This document shows, piece after piece, positions 39,669 to 49,277 of a stretch of 64,000 bases of DNA (the first letter of the stretch is position 1; each line of letters opens with the position of its first letter). The stretch is taken from contig NZ_CP037922.1 of assembly GCF_004355185.1 (NCBI RefSeq), forward strand, positions 2,946,001-3,010,000, read 5' to 3'. The notes beneath the pieces were generated by a model that was given only the letters and a program-made list of their open reading frames with translations, did no database searches and had not been told where the DNA came from. Origin of the DNA: Hymenobacter radiodurans (lineage in GTDB: Bacteria; Bacteroidota; Bacteroidia; Cytophagales; Hymenobacteraceae). Made by a program: the position numbers and the translations under genes.

Positions 39669-40682
39669 CTATACCAGTTCTTTACGGAGTGCGTACACGC
39701 GCCGCAGATTCTGAATCAGCCGGCTTGATTCCTCGAAATTCAGCGTCTGCTGACCGTCAGAAGCTGCTTCTTCTGGCTTCTCGTGGGTTTCGTATAAAAT
39801 GCCATCGGCCCCGGCCATAACGGCGGCCAGCGCCATTGGGGCTACATAATCGCGGATGCCGATGCCGTGCGACGGATCTACTACCACGGGCAGGTGCGTT
39901 TTCTCCTTGAGAATCGGCACTGCGTTCAGGTCCAAGGTATTGCGCGAAGCCGTTTCGAAGGTTCGGATGCCCCGCTCGCAGAGAATCAGCTTCTCGTTGC
40001 CACCCGAAAACACGTATTCAGCGGAGGACAATAGCTCTTCAATTGTCCCCGAAATACCACGCTTGATGAGTACCGGCTTATCGACTCCCCCTAGCGCATC
40101 GAGCAAGTTGAAATTCTGGGTGTTACGAGCGCCAACTTGGAACACATCCACGTAGTCGTGCATCTCCTCCACCTGCGACACCTGCATTACCTCTGTTACT
40201 ACTTTGATGCCGCGGGCACGGGCCATTTGGTGAAACTGTTTTAGGCCTTCCATCCCTAATCCACGGAAGGAATATGGGGAGGAGCGCGGCTTAAAAACGC
40301 CCCCCCGCATCAGCCACACGTTGTTATCGAGCAGGTGTTGCATGACTTTCTCCATCTGCTCTTCGCTCTCAATACTGCACGGCCCAGCTACCAGACTCAG
40401 CGAACCTTCACCGATAAATACACCGTCGCCTAAGTCGAGTACGGTGGGCCGCACGCGCCACTTGCGCGACACCAGCTGGTAATCGTCTGATACCTGATGA
40501 ATATCCCGAATTCCGGGCAGCTGGCCAATAGCGCGCAAGTCGACCTCTGCCTTGCCGATGCCTACCAAGTAATGGGCGCGCTGGGTCGTCACCTCCGTAA
40601 CCTTATACTTCAGGGCTTTTATCTGATTGATAATATCCGCCTTGGTGGTCGCGGTAATATCTTTTTCGAGTTGGATGAGCAT
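39669..40682 (-). CDS. aroF: 3-deoxy-7-phosphoheptulonate synthase (type I-beta)
   Basis: Condenses PEP and erythrose-4-phosphate at the entry of the shikimate pathway. Of the 337 residues, the N-terminal about 75 form a ferredoxin-like regulatory domain. The barrel follows with LVAGPCSIESEEQMEKV, LMRGGVFKPRSSPYSFRGLG, QVGARNTQNFNLL, ILCERGIRTFETASRNTLD and VVVDPSHGIG. This T. maritima-type architecture is usually allosterically regulated through the added domain. Last gene of the trp operon (33 bp after trpA), so precursor supply is co-regulated with Trp synthesis. Confidence 0.95.
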   Translation of the reverse strand: MLIQLEKDITATTKADIINQIKALKYKVTEVTTQRAHYLVGIGKAEVDLRAIGQLPGIRDIHQVSDDYQLVSRKWRVRPTVLDLGDGVFIGEGSLSLVAGPCSIESEEQMEKVMQHLLDNNVWLMRGGVFKPRSSPYSFRGLGMEGLKQFHQMARARGIKVVTEVMQVSQVEEMHDYVDVFQVGARNTQNFNLLDALGGVDKPVLIKRGISGTIEELLSSAEYVFSGGNEKLILCERGIRTFETASRNTLDLNAVPILKEKTHLPVVVDPSHGIGIRDYVAPMALAAVMAGADGILYETHEKPEEAASDGQQTLNFEESSRLIQNLRRVYALRKELV

Positions 40683-40715
40683 GGATTGCTGGTGCTGAGA
40701 AAGGTGTTGGAGTGC

Positions 40716-41498
40716 TTAATTCAGCACCGAGGAAACGAAAGCTTTGGCGGCAGCCGGCGCATCGTCGGCGCCTTCGAGGGCCCGAATGAAGGCGGAGCCG
40801 ATGATAGCGCCATCGGCGTAAGAGCACGCGCGGTCGAAGCTGGTTTTGTCGCCGATACCGAACCCGATGAGACGCGGATTGCGCAGATTCATGGCCGCGA
40901 TACGCTCGAAATACGCTTCCTGTACACCTTCACTTTGGGTATTTTGCCCCCCAGTAGTGCCGGGACCTGATACTAGGTACAGGAAAGAATCGGTCAGCTC
41001 GTCGATGCGGCGGATACGGCTCTCACTGGTTTGCGGCGTGATAAGGAACACGGGGCGCAGGTTATAGCGCCGGAATATTTCCTGATACTCAGCTACGTAG
41101 TCATCCAGCGGCAAATCGGGCAGAATGATGCCATCAACGCCAGCTTCGGCGGCTTGGCGGCAGAAGTTCTCTACTCCAAACTGCATCACCGGATTCAGGT
41201 AACCCATGAGCAGCAGCGGCGTGTTGGGCACCGTTTGGCGGATATCCTGCAATTGCTTGAACAGCACGCGCATGTTCATGCCGTTGGCCAACGCGGCGGT
41301 GCTGCTTTGCTGAATTACGGGACCATCGGCTAGCGGATCAGAAAAGGGCATCCCGATTTCGATCAGGTCGGCGCCGGCGCCGGAAAGAGTTTGAATGAGC
41401 GGCACCGTAGCGTCGAGTGTGGGGTAGCCGGCGGTGAAGTAGATATTGAGCAGTTTACCTTTCTTAGTGGCAAACGCTTGTTGGATACGGTTATTCAT
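40716..41498 (-). CDS. trpA: tryptophan synthase alpha subunit
   Basis: Cleaves indole-3-glycerol phosphate to indole. 260 residues; catalytic Glu in ADLIEIGMPFSDPLADGP (about 45-60) and Asp in the DGIILPDLPLDD block, then FLYLVSGPGTTGGQ and GFGIGDKTSFDRACSYADGAIIGSAFI. 43 bp after trpB. Confidence 0.97.
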   Translation of the reverse strand: MNNRIQQAFATKKGKLLNIYFTAGYPTLDATVPLIQTLSGAGADLIEIGMPFSDPLADGPVIQQSSTAALANGMNMRVLFKQLQDIRQTVPNTPLLLMGYLNPVMQFGVENFCRQAAEAGVDGIILPDLPLDDYVAEYQEIFRRYNLRPVFLITPQTSESRIRRIDELTDSFLYLVSGPGTTGGQNTQSEGVQEAYFERIAAMNLRNPRLIGFGIGDKTSFDRACSYADGAIIGSAFIRALEGADDAPAAAKAFVSSVLN

Positions 41499-41541
41499 CG
41501 ATCAGTTAGTGAGTTCGTGCAGTAAGTCATGGGCCACCACC

Positions 41542-42740
41542 TTAGTGCATTTGCTCGGCGTATTTCAGGTAAGTATCCAAGTCTTTGTCGCCGCGGCCCG
41601 AGAGGTTCAGCACCACAATATCATCAGGGCCCGCCCCTATTTCGGGTAAAGCTGCTAGCGCGTGCGCCGTTTCCAAGGCTGGAATAATGCCCTCCAAACG
41701 ACTCAGCTCGGCCACCGCCCGTAAAGCCGGCTCGTCTTCAATCGAGATAAATCGTGCCCGACCCGATGCGCCCAGAAAGGCATGTAACGGACCAATACCG
41801 GGATAATCGAGGCCCGCCGATAAAGAGTACGGCTCCGTAATCTGGCCGTCTTCGTCCTGCATAAGCAAGGTGCGCGAACCGTGAATAATACCCGGCTTTC
41901 CCAGCACTGAGGTTGCCGCGGAATGACCCGAGCTAATGCCTTTACCAGCCGCTTCTACTGCAATCAGCTTCACGGAAGGCTCATCCAAGAAATGATAAAA
42001 AGCCCCCGCCGCATTGGAGCCGCCGCCCACGCAAGCTACCACATAGTCGGGCAGTTCGCGGCCAACTTTCTCTAGCAGTTGCTTTCTAATCTCTTCGCTG
42101 ATAATGGCTTGCAGACGCGCCACCAAATCGGGATACGGGTGTGGGCCTACTACCGAACCAATAATGTAGTGTGTATCCACGGGGTTACTGATCCAGTCGC
42201 GGATGGCTTCGTTGGTGGCGTCTTTGAGGGTTTGGCTGCCGCTGGTAACGGGGCGCACTTCGGCGCCGAGCAGGCGCATCCGCTCCACGTTGGGGCGCTG
42301 ACGCTCGGTGTCGGTTTTACCCATGTAAACGATGCATTCCATCCCCATCAGAGCGCAGACGGTTGCCGTAGCCACGCCGTGCTGACCAGCGCCAGTTTCG
42401 GCAATAATGCGCGTCTTACCTAAGCGCTGCGCCAGCAGAATTTGACCGACAGTGTTATTGACTTTGTGGGCGCCGGTGTGGCACAAGTCTTCGCGCTTCA
42501 AGAAGATGCGGGTACCATAGCGAGCCGACAGGCGCTTGGCTTCAAACAACGGCGTGGGCCGGCCCACGAAGTCGCGCAGGAGCTGCTGGTAGTCGCGCTG
42601 AAAGTCGGGGTCGGCGAGGATGGTGAGGTATTGCTCACGCAATTCTTCCACGTTTGGGTAGAGCATTTCGGGAATAAATGCCCCCCGAACTCACCGTAGT
42701 AGCCACGGGCATTGGGTTGGAAAGCGGAAGTAGTAGCCAT
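41542..42740 (-). CDS. trpB: tryptophan synthase beta subunit (frame break repaired)
   Basis: Condenses indole with serine using PLP. About 399 residues after repair. The PLP Lys is in [18 protein letters not shown]; also [33 protein letters not shown] and [11 protein letters not shown]. The start [20 protein letters not shown] is at 42740. The frame breaks at the C6 run 42681-42686; one extra base gives [19 protein letters not shown], the expected text. Confidence 0.96.
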
Positions 42741-42793
42741 ATCGAAGGTGAAGGGTTGTGATGCTGGTTTTGAAATCAGTTAGTTAAAACGGT

Positions 42794-42875
42794 GTCATGT
42801 TGAGCTTGCCGAAGCATCTCTACTGATAAGTAGAATCAACGAAGCGGGAGAGATGCTTCGATTCCTCAGCATGAC
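42794..42875. repeat. REP/MITE-like hairpin element, copy 1 (overlaps trpF end)
   Basis: Ends GTCATG...CATGAC, with internal arms GAAGCATCTCT and AGAGATGCTTC. Its right end overlaps trpF by 10 bp: the element supplies the final VSC codons and the TGA stop. Confidence 0.8.
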
Positions 42876-43549
42876 ACGTTCTTGTGCTTAATGTCTATTA
42901 GTTCGGCAACGGCCGCGCCCCGAAGCTGCTGAAACATCTGCCCCAGCCGAATCGGGTCTTTCTTACCTGGAGAAATTTCAAACCGACTGTTTAAGTCTAC
43001 GGCAAACAAGCCGGGCAGCTGGAGGTTCCGCAGCGTTTCGGCGTGCGTTAGGTCGAGGCCTCCGGCGAGAAAGTAGGGAACGGGTAAGGCGTAGTCGCGC
43101 AGGAGTTGCCAATCGAAGACGAGTCCGTTGCCGCCGGGCTGCTCGCCTTTGGTGTCGAACAGGAAATAATCGCAGTGCGGGACGTAGGGCAATAGCGTAT
43201 CGAAGTCAAAATTGCCCCCCAGCGCAAACGCTTTGAGTACCAGCAAATCCGACGCACGCAGTTCCTGACATTGGGCGGGCGTTTCATCGCCGTGGAGTTG
43301 CACAGCGTTTAGTTTGAACTCCTGCACTCGCTGCCTGATAACTTCAGTCGCTTCATTCACAAAGACGCCCACTTTTTTGATGTTGGGGGGTAAATTTTCT
43401 AAGCTGGCCGTGCTTAGCTCTTGCCCTACATAGCGACTGGATTTGGGATAAAATATGAAGCCCAGAAAATCCGGTTGCAGCGCTGCCACGGCCGCCAAGC
43501 TATGCGCCTCGCGCATTCCGCACACCTTTATATATAAAGTAGGCTTCAT
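42866..43549 (-). CDS. trpF: phosphoribosylanthranilate isomerase
   Basis: Isomerises PRA to CdRP. 227 residues; YIKVCGMREAHSL with the catalytic Cys at residue 11, LGFIFYPKSSRYV, KVGVFVNE, AVQLHGDETPAQC and the barrel end FLAGGLDL/FAVDLNSRFE. The C-terminus (NVSC) is written by repeat copy 1. Follows trpC by 22 bp. Confidence 0.95.
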   Translation of the reverse strand: MKPTLYIKVCGMREAHSLAAVAALQPDFLGFIFYPKSSRYVGQELSTASLENLPPNIKKVGVFVNEATEVIRQRVQEFKLNAVQLHGDETPAQCQELRASDLLVLKAFALGGNFDFDTLLPYVPHCDYFLFDTKGEQPGGNGLVFDWQLLRDYALPVPYFLAGGLDLTHAETLRNLQLPGLFAVDLNSRFEISPGKKDPIRLGQMFQQLRGAAVAELIDIKHKNVSC

Positions 43550-43571
43550 GTTACTGAATTGACGCTGTGTT

Positions 43572-44384
43572 TTACGCCGTAATCGGCTCGGTAGCTTGTA
43601 ATTCCTGCACTAGCGCGGCGCATGCTTTTTCGGGGCGACTGTGACGCATGAAAGCCTCGCCCAGCAGGAAGCCGCGGTAACCATAACTACGCACTTGCCG
43701 GATAGCGGCTGCGGTGCTCAGCCCGCTTTCCGATACTTTCACGAATTCATCAGGGATGCGCTCAGCCAGCTCAGCGGAAGTTTCCAAACTCATGCTGAAG
43801 TCGTGCAGATTGCGGTTGTTGACGCCTACCAAGTTGACTGCTTCAGCGTCGAGGCTGCGGTCCAGTTCTTCGGCGTTGTGCACTTCCAACAACACTTCCA
43901 TACCTAGGCTGCGGGCGAAGCGACCAAGCTTTGCTATTTCGGCGGGCGTAAGCACGGCTGCTATGAGCAGCACGGCATCGGCACCGATGCTTTTGGCTTC
44001 TAGAATCTGGTACTCATCTATCACAAAATCTTTGCGCAGAATGGGGCAGAAATTGAAGCGGCGCGCTGTTATCAAGTCCTCATTTTGCCCCCCAAAGAAT
44101 TCCTTATCCGTGAGCACCGACAGCGCCGAAGCACCGGCCTGCATGTAGCCAATAGTCGTGCGCTCTACGGGCGCATGCGGATTTATCCAACCCTTTGAAG
44201 GCGATTTGCGCTTAAACTCGGCGATAATACCGCTTAAGTCTTCGCGTAATAGGTAGTGACGAAGCGATAATGGCTGCGTTTTGAAGTACAGGCTGCGCTC
44301 TAGCAGCTTCACCGGCACCAAGCTTTGGCGCTCAGCTACTTCGCCGCGCTTATGTTGAATAATCTGATCAAGGATAGTAGCCAT
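43572..44384 (-). CDS. trpC: indole-3-glycerol phosphate synthase
   Basis: Cyclises CdRP to indole-3-glycerol phosphate. 270 residues; IIAEFKRKSPSKGWI (catalytic Lys), VLTDKEFFGGQNEDL, PILRKDFVIDEYQI, LVGVNNRNLHDF and VSESGLSTAA. Stand-alone (not fused to trpF). Confidence 0.97.
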   Translation of the reverse strand: MATILDQIIQHKRGEVAERQSLVPVKLLERSLYFKTQPLSLRHYLLREDLSGIIAEFKRKSPSKGWINPHAPVERTTIGYMQAGASALSVLTDKEFFGGQNEDLITARRFNFCPILRKDFVIDEYQILEAKSIGADAVLLIAAVLTPAEIAKLGRFARSLGMEVLLEVHNAEELDRSLDAEAVNLVGVNNRNLHDFSMSLETSAELAERIPDEFVKVSESGLSTAAAIRQVRSYGYRGFLLGEAFMRHSRPEKACAALVQELQATEPITA

Positions 44385-44474
44385 GAGTTAAGAACAAGAA
44401 GCCGCGGAGTTTGGTCGGCTGTGAGGATGAAAATGAATAGGTAGAGCAGGATGTAGAAATGCAGATTCGTGCAT

Positions 44475-45463
44475 TTACACGTTCAACAACTGCCGAAAAG
44501 CCCCCGAGCGCGCCCACTCGCTAACGACTCACGAGCTGCTTCCAACGCCGCGGGCAGCGACAGTGCGGGGTCAGCGCATTGAATAGCCAGAGCGGCATTT
44601 GCCGTTACGACATCGCGCTGGGCAGTGGTTCCTTTGTTATCAAGCACTTGCAGAAACAATGCGGCAGATTCGGCTACAGTTTGTCCCCCAGCTAGGTCAT
44701 TAGCGGTATAAGTAGGCATACCGAGCGTGGCGGCGGTTACCACCTGCTCGCCCCGCGCCGACACTACTTTGGCGGTGCCCGTCAGCGACAGTTCATCGTA
44801 GCCGTCGAGCGCGTGAACGACGGCGTAGCGGGTGCTGGTTTGCTGAAACAAGTAGTTATATAAACGCAGCAATTCTAGGCTGAACACCCCCGCCAATTGG
44901 GCTGCTGGCCGCGCTGGATTAACCAACGGACCCAAAATATTGAAGAAAGTGCGTACGCCCAATTCGCGGCGTACGGGCCCGGCGTGGCGCATGGCCGGGT
45001 GAAAGGCTGCCGCGTGCAGAAAGCAGATATTCGCCTCATCTAGCTGCCGCCTTAGGTTGTCGGATGGCGCCTCAAAATCGTAGCCGAAGTGAGCCAATAT
45101 ATTGGAAGAACCACACACCGACGACACCCCGAAGTTGCCGTGCTTGGCCACCTTATAGCCTGCACCAGCCGCTACAAAACAGGCCAGCGTGGAGATATTG
45201 AGCGTGTCTTTACCATCTCCGCCAGTGCCCACAATATCAAGCACTTCGTGGGTGCCTAGTTCCGGGTCGCGGCAGAGGTCGAGCAGGGCATCGCGGAAGC
45301 CGCTCAATTCCGGCACCGTGATGGGCCGCATCCGGTACACGGTCATAAAAGCGGCCGTTTCGGATGCATTGACGCCTCCCTGACCCAGGCGAAACATAGC
45401 CTCGCGGGCTTCCTCACGGGTGAGGGTTTGCTGGTCAAAAAGGGTGGTGAGGATCTGTTTCAA
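44475..45463 (-). CDS. trpD: anthranilate phosphoribosyltransferase (frame break repaired)
   Basis: Transfers phosphoribosyl to anthranilate. DIVGTGGDGKDTLNISTLA, KHGNFGVSSVCGSSNILAHFG, FFNILGPLVNPARP. Near the end the frame breaks at C5 44501-44505; the raw frame stops early at 44483. One more base gives SGRARGAFRQLLNV and a stop at 44475, about 329 residues. Confidence 0.95.
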
Positions 45464-45509
45464 AATCGGTGATTTATAGAGATTGTACTGACCTGTTTCT
45501 TATTCGTAT

Positions 45510-45603
45510 GTCATGCCGAGCGGAGCGAAGCATCTCGCGTGTTTAGTGGGATTACTAACCTCTCATCAGCACGCGAGATGCTTCGGCTCCGCCTCTGCAT
45601 GAC
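45510..45603. repeat. REP/MITE-like hairpin element, copy 2
   Basis: GTCATGCCGAGCGGAGCGAAGCATCTCGCGTG ... inverse arm CACGCGAGATGCTTCGGCTC ... CATGAC, between trpG and trpD. Variant arm sequence compared with copies 1 and 3 (GCGGAGC in place of the TTG(C/T)CG stretch). Confidence 0.8.
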
Positions 45604-45625
45604 GTTCTGAGCATGGTGCTTCATT

Positions 45626-46197
45626 TTAGTCAACAAGCCAGTTTTTCAGCATTTCGTGGCCGTGTTCGGTCAGGATGGATTCGGGATGAAACTGCACGCC
45701 GCGCACGTCATACTGGCGGTGACGCAGGGCTAGCACCTGACCATTAGCGTCGCTGGCCGTTATTTCCAGTTCTGCCGGCATCGACTCAGGAGTTACAACC
45801 CAGGAATGGTAGCGGCCTACCTTAAATTTGGTAGGCAGGTTTTTGAATAACCTGTCCTCGCCAGTAATGATATCAGCGTCGGTGGCAATGCCGTGCAGCA
45901 CGGCGGGCAGGTTATACAATTGCCCCCAAAAGCCTCGGCAATTCCTTGATGGCCAAGGCATACGCCCAGCATCCGTTTCGTGGGCGCATAGCGCTCGATG
46001 ATGGCGGGCATGAGGCCAGCATCGGCAGGAACGCCGGGGCCGGGTGAAAGCAGAATGGAATCGTATTGCTCCACTTCTTCCAACGATATTTTATCGTTGC
46101 GCACGACGGTGGTTTGGGCACCGTAGCCTAACTCGCGCAGGAGCTGCACGAGGTTGTACGTGAAGGAATCGTAATTATCGAGAACGAGGATACTCAT
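45626..46197 (-). CDS. trpG: anthranilate synthase glutaminase subunit (frame break repaired)
   Basis: Provides ammonia from glutamine to TrpE. ILVLDNYDSFTYNLVQLLRELG, LLSPGPGVP, nucleophile Cys in LGVCLGHQGIAEAFGG, and His/Glu in GVQFHPESILTEHG. Frame breaks at C5 45923-45927; one extra base restores FGGQLYNLPAVLHGIATD, about 190 residues. 162 bp before trpD, the gap holding repeat copy 2. Confidence 0.96.
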
Positions 46198-46338: not shown

Positions 46339-47798
46339 TTACTTGCTAGCCGTGGCGGTAAGCTTCTCCCCTATTGCTTCGGCCATTTTCAAGGCTTTGC
46401 GCAGGGCGGCTAGCTTGTGATGCACTTCGTTTAGTTCGGAATTGATGTCGGAAGCGGCTACTACGCCGGCGCCGGCTTGGTAATGGAGTTGGTTGCCGGT
46501 GCTAAGGAAAGAGCGAATCATAATGGCGTGGTTGAAGTCGCCGTTGAAGCCTAAGTAGCCGAGGGCGCCGCCATAGTAGCCGCGACCCGTTGGTTCGAGC
46601 TTATCTATGAGCTGCATGGCGCTGTGCTTAGGGGCACCGGAGAGCGTGCCGGCCGGGAACGTATCGGCTACTACTTGCAGCGGCGAGGCGTCGGGAGCCA
46701 GCGTGGCAGTTACTTCGCTTACTAGGTGGATGACGTGGGAGTAGTACTGGATTTCGCGGAAGACCTTCACTTTCACCTCGTCGCCGTGGCGAGCCAAGTC
46801 GTTGCGGGCTAGGTCAACTAGCATCACGTGCTCAGCATTTTCCTTGGGGTCGTCGGCTAATTTCTGGGCGAGGGCGGCATCTTCGGCATCGTGGCCGGTG
46901 CGGCGGAAAGTGCCGGCAATGGGAAACAGGCTGGCGGCGCGCCCTTTAATTAGCAACTGAGTTTCGGGCGAGGAGCCAAAGATTTTGAAGTTGCCGTAGT
47001 CGAAATAAAACAGATAAGGCGACGGATTCACGGAGCGCAACGCGCGGTACACATTGAACTCATCGCCCACAAAACCCTGCGAAAAGCGGCGCGACAACAC
47101 AATCTGGAACACGTCGCCTTTGCGGCAGTGGTTCTGGCCAGCGGCCAGCTTCTCTAAAAACTCCTCATCGGTCAGGTTGGTGGTCTCATCACCTATCGGC
47201 GCAAAACCGAACTCCGGCAAACTCGGATTGCGCACTAGGTTCACCAGTCGCGTCAGGCCGTCGTGGTCAGTGGGCTCATCGGCGGGCGAGTGTTCAAACA
47301 CGTACAGCTCATTGCGGAAGTGGTTGATGGCAATGACGTAGCGGTAGGTGCCGTAAATGATGTCCGGAATCTGGCCGGCCGATTCTTTGGCGGGGTTCAG
47401 GGTAAGGTCTTCGAAATACTGCACCGCCTCATAGCCCATGTAGCCAAAAAGCCCCCAGTAATGAAATCGAACTCGCTTTTCTCCGTTTGGAAGCGGCTCG
47501 CGAATTCGCGCAGGCGATCGAGAGCGAGGCGGGGTTGTACCAGCGTTTCGGTGGTAGTGGTGCCGTCCGGGAAGGTTTGGGTCAGCTCACTGCGGCTTAG
47601 CTCAAAGCGCGCCAGCGGGTCGCAGGCTAAGTAGCTGAATGCGTTCTGCTGCCCGTGATAGTCGGAGCTTTCCAGCAGTAGGCAGTTGGGATACTGATCG
47701 CGCAGACGCAGGTAAAGCCCCACCGGCGTCACGGTATCGGCCAGCAGGCGTACGTGGCGGGTTTTGAGCAAGTAAGTAAGTTGCGGTGAGTTATTCAT
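46339..47798 (-). CDS. trpE: anthranilate synthase component I (frame break repaired)
   Basis: Makes anthranilate from chorismate. The N-terminal LLESS at about residue 42 matches the LLES Trp-feedback site. The chorismate core is intact (FGSSPETQLLI, FPIAGTFRRTG, ENAEHVMLVDLARNDLAR, VADTFPAGTLSGAPK, GGALGYLGFNG, QAGAGVVAASD). The frame breaks at C5 47452-47456; one extra base gives FITGGLFGYMGYEAVQ, about 486 residues. First structural gene, 58 bp after the attenuator hairpin. Confidence 0.96.
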
Positions 47799-47855: not shown

Positions 47856-47886
47856 ACAAAAAAGCCCGGCGGGTGGCCGGGCTTTC
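47856..47886 (-). terminator. trp attenuator terminator
   Basis: On the minus strand AAAGCCCGGC-CACCC-GCCGGGCTTT, a perfect 10-bp stem followed by TTTTTG, between the leader peptide and trpE. The terminator contains GGCCACC, the complement of GGTGGCC in the leader's Trp-codon stretch. Confidence 0.9.
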
Positions 47887-47923
47887 CTTTATGTTTGATG
47901 CGAGGTTCTATTTACAAATGACC

Positions 47924-48001
47924 TTACCGCACGCACAGGTTTTCCCGTCCGGAGTTTCGGAGAGGCCACCACCATGCTTGCGAAGTCATTGAGAAATTCA
48001 T
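47924..48001 (-). CDS. trpL: trp leader peptide with Trp-Trp-Trp
   Basis: A 25-residue peptide, MNFSMTSQAWWWPLRNSGRE plus NLCVR, whose three tandem TGG codons (47966-47974) lie 38 nt or more upstream of an intrinsic terminator and the trpE start. This is the arrangement of ribosome-mediated transcription attenuation: stalling at scarce Trp-tRNA would favour read-through. It is too short for standard gene finders. Confidence 0.9.
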   Translation of the reverse strand: MNFSMTSQAWWWPLRNSGRENLCVR

Positions 48002-48028
48002 TGCCACTGAGTAAAGGCGTTTGTGTCG

Positions 48029-48058
48029 CAAATATACGGGCGAACTCACACTGCGCAA
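48029..48058 (-). promoter_or_regulatory. trp operon promoter
   Basis: Minus-strand TTG (48056-48058), 19 nt spacer, TATATTTG (48029-48036): a full match to the Bacteroidota -33/-7 pattern. Transcription would start about 20 nt before the leader ATG. Confidence 0.75.
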
Positions 48059-48096: not shown

Positions 48097-49277
48097 TCAT
48101 TGCCTGACACGCGCTTTTTTGCCCCCCGGCGCATTCGATTGGTATAGCCACTGATAAGCGGCCGGAAACTCACGCCGCCAAAACCACTCGGCGTGCTTGC
48201 CATCCGGCACAGCGTGGTAGCTGATGGCCGCGGGCTTCACTCCTGCTTTTCGCAAAGAATCTCGCATGGCAGCCATCAGCGGCACCATTGTCTCGCTTTC
48301 CTGTTCGCCAGCGACTAAGTAAAACTGCATGGGCTGCCGCACTTTAGTGCGGCGCACGTAGGCAAAAACAGAGTCCTGCGCGAACCACAAAGCCGGCGAA
48401 AACACTCCGATTTTGCTGAACACTCGGGGATATTTTAAGCCCGCGTACAACGAAATCAGGCCACCCATGGAAGAGCCAGCTATGCCCGTATGTTGACGAT
48501 TCTTTAAGGTACGATACTTTGCATCAATGTGCGGCTTAAGGGTTTGCACCATAAAATTGAGATAGGCATCGCCCTGCCCGCCACCATACTTCGCATTACG
48601 CCACGGCGAGAGCTCATCGAGGCGCGTGTCGCCGCCGTGGTCCACGGCTACCACAATGCAGCCCGCATCATGCCCAGCTAGTTGCAGCTGACGCAGTGTT
48701 TCGTCCACGCCCCACTCACCGCTGAAGCCCGTAAACTCATCGAAGACATTCTGGCCATCGTGCAGATACAGCACGGGGTAGCGCCGATTACTGGTGGCGT
48801 AGTCGTTGGGCAGATACACCCACACGCGCCGCTTTCGGTTGAGTTGAGGAATAGCAAACGAGTCGGTCAGCACAGTCACATTAGGAGTCAGTGTGTGCTG
48901 CTTGATGGGTGCGCCACCCGCCAGATCCTGCCAATTACTGATTACGTGGGTGACCGTTTTGCCCGCGGCAGCCGAATATCGCCGATTCTCGACGGCTTTG
49001 TTGGCAGCATCAGTTTCTACCGTTTCCCAGGTGCCACGCGTGAATTTGTACTCGAAATTGCCGGTGCTGGGGGCAAAATCACCTGGTAGCTGCCATCCGC
49101 ATTTTTGGTAAGCGCGTGGGGGGCATTTTTGGGGTTCCAATTATTGAAAGAGCCCGCCACATACAGTACGGCATCGGTGGGTGTATTGGCTGGTACGTGG
49201 TCAACGCGCAGCGTAACCTGGGCCTGTAGGGAGCCTGCGCACAAGAGCAAGCTGAGTGATAAGGAAGGAAGACGCAT
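48097..49277 (-). CDS. secreted CBM48-like/esterase-D family protein (frame break repaired)
   Basis: Signal peptide (1-18, ending SLQAQ), then an early-set carbohydrate-binding-like domain (AGSFNNWNPKNAPHALTKNA...FEYKFTRGTWETVE, about 40-85). An esterase-D alpha/beta-hydrolase domain follows, with the nucleophile Ser in GIAGSSMGGLIS, YLHDGQNVFDE near the oxyanion, and a His in PDGKHAEWFWRREFP. Frame breaks at G5 49069-49073; one extra base gives ILPPSTGNFEYKFTRGTW, about 393 residues. It probably de-esterifies carbohydrate or phenolic esters outside the inner membrane. Confidence 0.88.

Follow-up and report, generated by a model that had tools for sequence, protein, structure and literature searches.

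A Probable Ribosome-Mediated Attenuator ahead of the Tryptophan Operon of Hymenobacter

The DNA immediately ahead of trpE in the Hymenobacter window analyzed here (the whole stretch of 64,000 nucleotides) very probably encodes a ribosome-mediated transcription attenuator of the trp operon, a reading built on sequence comparison and predicted folds. The trp genes would probably be read through only when a ribosome stalls from a shortage of tryptophan. The elements of this leader, their conservation, the mutually exclusive helices that they can form, and coordinated changes within those helices are directly established. The principle is classical and is on record in related bacteria; the Hymenobacter version has an RNA layout of its own. 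An earlier note, made from the letters alone, had described a promoter, an ORF with three consecutive Trp codons, a 10-bp hairpin, and trpE in that order, and this order holds to the base on the minus strand. Its proposal of ribosome-mediated trp attenuation is supported as well, with a Trp-rich ORF, a promoter box, and a terminator that are conserved and competing helices that change coordinately.

The Leader and Its Operon

The elements of the leader and the genes that follow are collected in Table 1. The terminator stem is a perfect 10-bp helix (47885-47876 with 47870-47861) with the loop CACCC, followed by T6 on the minus strand. A hairpin scan of the window listed this hairpin on the plus strand only, presumably because the stem, extended by G-U pairs, masked the T tract of the minus strand. 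The promoter box TANNTTTG is absent between the terminator and trpE in the window, and it is present there in just 1 of 91 leaders. The 25-aa leader peptide belongs to no family in NCBIfam or Pfam.

Strand and spacing suggest that the genes of the operon are co-transcribed. In this assembly trpE (47798-46339) and trpG (46197-45626) each occupy two frames, as the gene preceding the leader (49358-48097) also seems to do, with overlapping ORFs at 49358-49017 and 49140-48097. The nearest relatives (G333 and G352) have one open trpE frame, so indels in the assembly are the likely source of the split genes. The 366-residue TrpE piece from the window is 97% identical to the TrpE of the H. roseosalivarius DSM 11622 locus (L076).

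Table 1 Coordinates of the leader elements and operon genes in the window
Feature	Coordinates	Strand	Remarks
Promoter	48029..48058	minus	Bacteroidota-type; TTG 48058-48056, 19-nt spacer, TATATTTG 48036-48029
Leader ORF	47924..48001	minus	25 codons, peptide MNFSMTSQAWWWPLRNSGRENLCVR; ATG 48001; stop TAA 47926-47924
Three Trp codons TGGTGGTGG	47966..47974	minus	Putative sensing site
Segment 1 CCTCTCCG	47958..47965	minus	47965-47963 and 47961-47958 pair with segment 2 (protector)
Segment 2 CGGACGGG	47944..47951	minus	Inside the ORF, around GGACGGG; partner is segment 1 or the terminator 5′ arm
Inner antiterminator helices, 5′ strands	47921..47939	minus	Predicted fold, stop codon included; equivalent helices counted on alignments A1 and A2
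Inner antiterminator helices, 3′ strands	47886..47906	minus	Predicted fold and alignments
Terminator 5′ arm AAAGCCCGGC	47876..47885	minus	Common to terminator and antiterminator
Terminator 3′ arm GCCGGGCTTT and T tract	47858..47870	minus	T6 at 47863-47858
trpE	46339..47798	minus	Two frames in this assembly: ORFs 47798-47397 and 47439-46339; ATG 47798
Downstream operon	39669..46197	minus	trpG (two frames), trpD, trpC, trpF, PALP enzyme in the trpB place, trpA, DAHP synthase

Conservation of the Leader

Of the 96 TrpE-bearing genomes of the family, 70 were read upstream of trpE, together with 80 further Hymenobacter genomes (150 family loci); for Hymenobacter as a whole, the reading covered 110 of 118 genomes that have TrpE. 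A leader was counted when an ATG ORF of 8-60 aa with two consecutive Trp codons (WW) lay within roughly 470 nt upstream of trpE. Such an ORF is present at 150 of 150 family loci; among reverse complements it turns up in 5 of 150, and among Markov shuffles in 38 of 3000. The 80 of 80 scored for the further Hymenobacter genomes includes L240, where the ORF sits at an unusual distance and may be there by chance. A separate collection of 150 loci, from which peptides were compared, contains some genomes in both a named and an unnamed set, and L094, L137, and L146 were therefore left out when the other Bacteroidota were counted. Among these, the WW ORF precedes trpE at 61 of 63 loci versus 0 of 63 reverse complements and 22 of 1260 shuffles. 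The earlier note had called for this comparison of leaders, and it yields both the recurrent ORF and the coordinated changes described below.

The other elements recur with the ORF. The box TANNTTTG lies upstream of the WW codons at 138 of the 150 family loci (shuffles 133/3000) and at 57 of 61 loci from other Bacteroidota (shuffles 117/1220). Outside Hymenobacter, 106 of 109 leaders have a terminator-like hairpin with a mechanical score of at least 12 after the WW ORF; the corresponding figure for shuffles is 1 of 545. In the window, TGGTGGTGG occurs three times where 0.40 occurrences are expected; conservation, not this count, is the decisive test against chance. The leader combines a short upstream ORF with consecutive codons for the amino acid of the pathway, an intrinsic terminator between that ORF and the first gene, and a conserved antiterminator that excludes the terminator.

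A covariance model built on clades A and B (model R1; clades defined below) finds matches in 100 of 120 Hymenobacter genomes, and in 99 of these the top hit is a strong one (E 1.7e-6 or lower). The strong matches that were compared lie ~400-530 nt upstream of the TrpE match. The genome of the window has one match, which is the leader. The sole match in G353 (E 3.0e-4) and four second matches elsewhere (E 2.6e-4 to 9.7e-4) score weakly and resemble chance hits.

Competing Helices

The 109 parsed Hymenobacter leaders carry WWW and reduce to 92 distinct sequences in four clades. Clade A (WWWPLRNSGRE.., n = 21) includes the window leader; the others are clade B (WWWP-Y/L/F-GNSGRD.., n = 41), clade C (WWWQ-F/L-RN..GP.., n = 25), and clade D (WWWPLR..SGPDSQC, n = 5). 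With numbering that starts at the base after WWW, segment 1 covers positions 1-9 and segment 2 covers positions 13-22. The putative protector hairpin (1:2) consists of pairs between positions 1-3 and 20-22, plus an inner helix in one of two registers: positions 5-8 with 15-18 (R1) or 6-9 with 13-16 (R2).

The inner helix is complete in one register or the other in 90 of the 92 distinct leaders. Register R1 is complete in 21/21 leaders of clade A, 5/5 of clade D, and 23/25 of clade C, and register R2 is complete in 41/41 of clade B, where base 7 is changed. The pair 3-20 is U-G in clade A, C-G (37 leaders) or U-G (4 leaders) in clade B, and G-C in clades C and D. Pair 2-21 is A.G in 25 of 25 clade C leaders, which counts against a strong protector there. 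The 1:2 pairing is strong in clades A, B, and D and weak in clade C.

Segment 2 has a second partner. When the RNA ahead of a stalled ribosome is folded, segment 2 and the terminator 5′ arm are paired in every one of 91 distinct leaders, a count from which L224, with a terminator position set by hand, is left out. Contact with the arm runs through positions 19-22 in 60 of the 91 and through positions 13-18 in the remaining 31. In many of them, the final codons of the ORF, the region of the stop codon, and the spacer also fold into inner helices. In the window the predicted antiterminator helices are 47947-47944/47881-47878, 47939-47934/47893-47886, 47932-47928/47902-47898, and 47924-47921/47906-47903. 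A pairing of GGACGGG with the first terminator arm had been pointed out in the earlier note, and across the leaders this fold is retained as the antiterminator. The note also matched GGTGGCC within the Trp codons to GGCCACC in the terminator. That complementarity exists in the window but is not conserved: the exact GGCCACC is found in just 11 of the 92 distinct leaders, and with one G-U allowed the pairing is possible in 45/92 Hymenobacter leaders and in 0/25 of clade C. It was rejected as the switch.

Alignments bear on both folds. On a MAFFT alignment of clades C and D (A1, 30 distinct leaders), 98.0% of the antiterminator cells pair, and two pairs change on both sides; the observed values are reached by 0 of 500 shuffles on any of five measures, and slid versions of the structure pair at 29.1-51.7%. 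The 1:2 plus terminator structure pairs at 94.7% on the clade C and D alignment, with covariation not beyond the shuffles. On the alignment of clades A and B (A2, 62 distinct leaders), pairing reaches 98.4% for the outer 1:2 pairs, the TGCG:CGCA helix, and the terminator taken together. Two-sided change is seen at two pairs (reached by 46/500 shuffles) and the pair types also fall within the shuffles (291/500), so two of the five measures are unexceptional; the other three stand at 0/500. A one-position shift at the terminator in alignment A2 affects rows L003, L170, and L172, which were scored as unpaired at that point.

Folding with the Ribosome in Place

Folding in two ribosome states had been suggested in the earlier note, and the outcome depends on how the ribosome is treated. 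In split folding, the RNA 5′ and 3′ of the ribosome is folded separately, and 920 controls keep the peptide and the terminator. For the window leader, antiterminator pairing of the arm is 0.70 when the ribosome is stalled, and 1:2 pairing is 0.71 with the ribosome at the stop codon. Over the 92 leaders, 1:2 pairing averages 0.386 (0.60 in clade A, 0.43 in B, 0.07 in C, and 0.69 in D) versus 0.048 in controls, and both properties exceed 0.5 in 43/92 leaders versus 19/920 controls. Split folding in this sense separates leaders from controls, but when pairs across the ribosome are permitted the contrast is lost, with a change above 0.3 in 16/92 leaders versus 110/552 controls.

Other quantities from split folding are less distinctive. 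Pairing of the arm in the stalled state barely exceeds that in controls (0.761 versus 0.727; with segment 2 only, 0.688 versus 0.583). With the ribosome at the stop codon, pairing of segment 2 with anything upstream is lower than in controls (0.499 versus 0.555). Full-length folding favors the terminator in every state; it also permits pairs across the ribosome, and its stalled-versus-stop figures are not counted as proof. Since the terminator is favored in the full RNA, antitermination would have to be kinetic, with the fold chosen before the 3′ arm is transcribed. The classical attenuation model likewise has the choice precede transcription of the terminator 3′ arm.

Rare Codons in the Leader

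The trpE genes of 25 Hymenobacter loci served as the reference for codon usage after WWW. In 84 of 92 leaders the third codon is CGA (1% of Arg codons) or GGA (2% of Gly codons); codon 6 is GGA in 90 of 92, and codon 1 is CCT (7% of Pro codons) in 24. Codon 5 varies among TCC, ATC, CTC, TTC, and TCT, a set in which bases are preserved and the residue is not. Rare codons that are preserved and bases that are conserved while the residue changes point to selection on the RNA. Together, the coordinated changes and the rare codons support RNA-level selection, save for the weak 1:2 hairpin in one clade. The register shift and the rare codons present a coding sequence that seems to be maintained for its RNA folds while the residues drift.

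Proposed Mechanism and Alternatives

From these elements and folds we infer a transcription start, translation of the leader, coupling of the ribosome to the polymerase, stalling, a kinetic win for the antiterminator, and a response to tryptophan. The polymerase would start a few nucleotides past the promoter box TATATTTG, and a ribosome would follow, translating the 25 codons. With Trp-tRNA plentiful, the ribosome would reach the TAA and cover or break the inner antiterminator helix strands; segment 1 would pair with segment 2 behind it, the terminator would form, and transcription would end near 47858. With Trp-tRNA scarce, the ribosome would stall on one of the three Trp codons and cover segment 1. 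Segment 2 and the terminator 5′ arm would then pair, and the inner helices hold, before the 3′ arm exists. With the antiterminator formed, the polymerase would continue into trpE.

A related scheme dispenses with the protector: a ribosome at the stop codon masks an antiterminator strand, a stalled one does not, and the 1:2 pairing is incidental. It would account for the weak 1:2 hairpin in clade C, and Rufibacter-type leaders (see below) have a predicted antiterminator strand that starts at or just past the stop codon, which would make a protector unnecessary. The scheme is unlikely given that 1:2 pairing stands far over the peptide-preserving controls in the 92 leaders; clade B's switch of register and the coordinated change at pair 3-20 argue against it too. 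It is quite improbable that the leader peptide acts in trans and is conserved for its own sequence, a role for which the residues following WWW, conserved within Hymenobacter, could speak and which passages of one report describe for the Sinorhizobium trp leader peptide (PMC7298713). Peptide tails vary between genera, and bases are kept where residues change, as at codon 5, along with the rare codons.

Two further explanations do without the ribosome. T-box and TRAP control likewise place a terminator ahead of a Trp operon, and the fold might be decided by tRNA binding to a T-box, by a protein, or by a metabolite. No Rfam family reaches its gathering score in the window, no T-box model is among the nine Rfam matches found there up to E 10, and WWW in a conserved ORF would be left unexplained, all of which make this reading barely credible. 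Lastly, the hairpin could merely terminate the upstream gene, with a Trp-rich ORF there by chance. That gene, esterase-like with a score under the NCBIfam cut-offs, lies on the same strand, ends at 48097, and has no other terminator identified for it. The wide recurrence of the WW ORF, promoter box, and hairpin before trpE, set against the 38 of 3000 shuffles with a WW ORF, leaves this explanation next to no chance of being right.

Relation to Known Leaders

The attenuator proposed here can be compared with two Rfam families. RF00513 (Trp_leader), which we take to be the E. coli-type Trp operon leader, aligns weakly over 47980-47856 (22.8 bits, E 0.028, under the cut-off of 41 bits). The shared features are consecutive Trp codons in a leader ORF, a putative protector, an antiterminator, and a terminator. 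The stop codon of the E. coli trp leader lies between segments 1 and 2, whereas in Hymenobacter it falls 3′ of segment 2, which is itself part of the ORF, and within the antiterminator.

The second family, RF01692 (Bacteroid-trp, "Bacteroidete tryptophan peptide leader RNA"), stems from Weinberg 2010 (PMC2864571). Leaders of this kind had thus been recorded for Bacteroidota before. Both have a Trp-rich ORF and competing RNA structure before a Bacteroidota Trp operon; the RF01692 model places the Trp codons within the main stem, whereas in the Hymenobacter leader they lie 5′ of the protector stem. RF01692 has no match in the window, at gathering or up to E 10, and none in three Hymenobacter genomes (that of the window, G005, and G011). 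At gathering it is found at 5 of 20 loci from relatives, all flavobacterial, and the flavobacterial loci L116, L123, and L139 have no match. Across the phylum it occurs in 17 of 198 genomes (15 over the cut-off), all from one family, and in 1 of 14 control genomes, that of Bacteroides ihuae.

Published hints of such control in the phylum come from a few sources, each cited for particular passages. For Flavobacterium psychrophilum, an element upstream of the trp operon is described as similarly structured to that of E. coli (PMC6414381), and strong clues for leader-peptide attenuation ahead of amino-acid operons are mentioned together with TAnnTTTG as the sigma-A box (PMC9723704). For B. thetaiotaomicron, sORFs reminiscent of leader peptides are mentioned (PMC7366714). 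In a passage of a 2010 paper (PMC2965389), the authors knew leader-peptide systems only from Proteobacteria and Actinobacteria before their own Firmicutes case. Neither the Hymenobacter form nor a serial pair of Trp attenuators turned up in a search of open-licence literature.

Leaders across the Phylum

A draw across the phylum gave 88 TrpE matches, 2 of them from loci already in the set; 68 new loci were read with GTG and TTG starts allowed. In the same order or class, 21 of 22 loci have WW before trpE, and the remaining one has WLW. In other classes WW is found at 29 of 46 loci, including L272 and L276, where the odd distances may mean chance; L273 and L302-L315 have no Trp-rich ORF before trpE. 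Other classes of the GTDB phylum thus also have leaders with WWW, WFWWW, WAWWW, and NWWWW ahead of trpE (L270-L301).

It is an even bet that Trp leader-peptide attenuation is ancestral for trpE in Bacteroidota (in the GTDB sense) and that the RNA was rewired repeatedly, through an in-ORF protector with a register shift in Hymenobacter, stop-codon masking and doubling in series in the Rufibacter-type genus, and the RF01692 stem in flavobacteria. If this holds, close coupling of transcription and translation would be required in the phylum. Leader-peptide attenuation needs a ribosome close behind the polymerase, so a functional test of the Hymenobacter leader would probe coupling in Bacteroidota. 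The leader also offers a concrete, testable candidate RNA switch for a phylum in which our search turned up such control mainly as an Rfam motif and transcriptome hints.

A group of Hymenobacter with divergent TrpE (63-65% identity; L066-L070, L242, L243, and L245-L247) has a different leader, MSFxATVSQSWWHSTFP... The genomes of this group that were read have mostly this leader and no strong match to model R1. It is as if the operon had been replaced along with its own attenuator.

In the Rufibacter-type genus (g6; L081 and L083 are named examples), all 15 TrpE-bearing genomes have two WW ORFs ~155-160 nt apart ahead of trpE. A hairpin and a T-rich stretch come after each of the two ORFs, the first T tract being interrupted. 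The loci counted are L027, L032-L036, L039-L043, L045, L048, L052, and L055. The distance from WW to the stop codon is 21 nt in 15/15 first ORFs and 24 nt in 12/15 second ORFs. In first elements the predicted antiterminator starts at or just past the stop codon in 13 of 15, with L034 and L043 folding otherwise; in second elements it pairs in 15 of 15, with its strand inside the ORF in L040 and L042. Passages on the Salmonella mgtCBR leader (PMC3641672) likewise describe two leader-ORF attenuation elements in one leader; that pair senses ATP and proline, whereas both Rufibacter-type ORFs have Trp codons, each with its own hairpin. Such serial attenuators amount to a natural experiment in which one control is stacked. 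In L027 and L052, an ATG that overlaps the stop codon of the first leader opens a frame (MGEPLAVQK..) into the second WW leader, perhaps by coincidence. In a Flammeovirgaceae MAG (L101), two WWW ORFs are each followed by an inverted repeat and a T tract.
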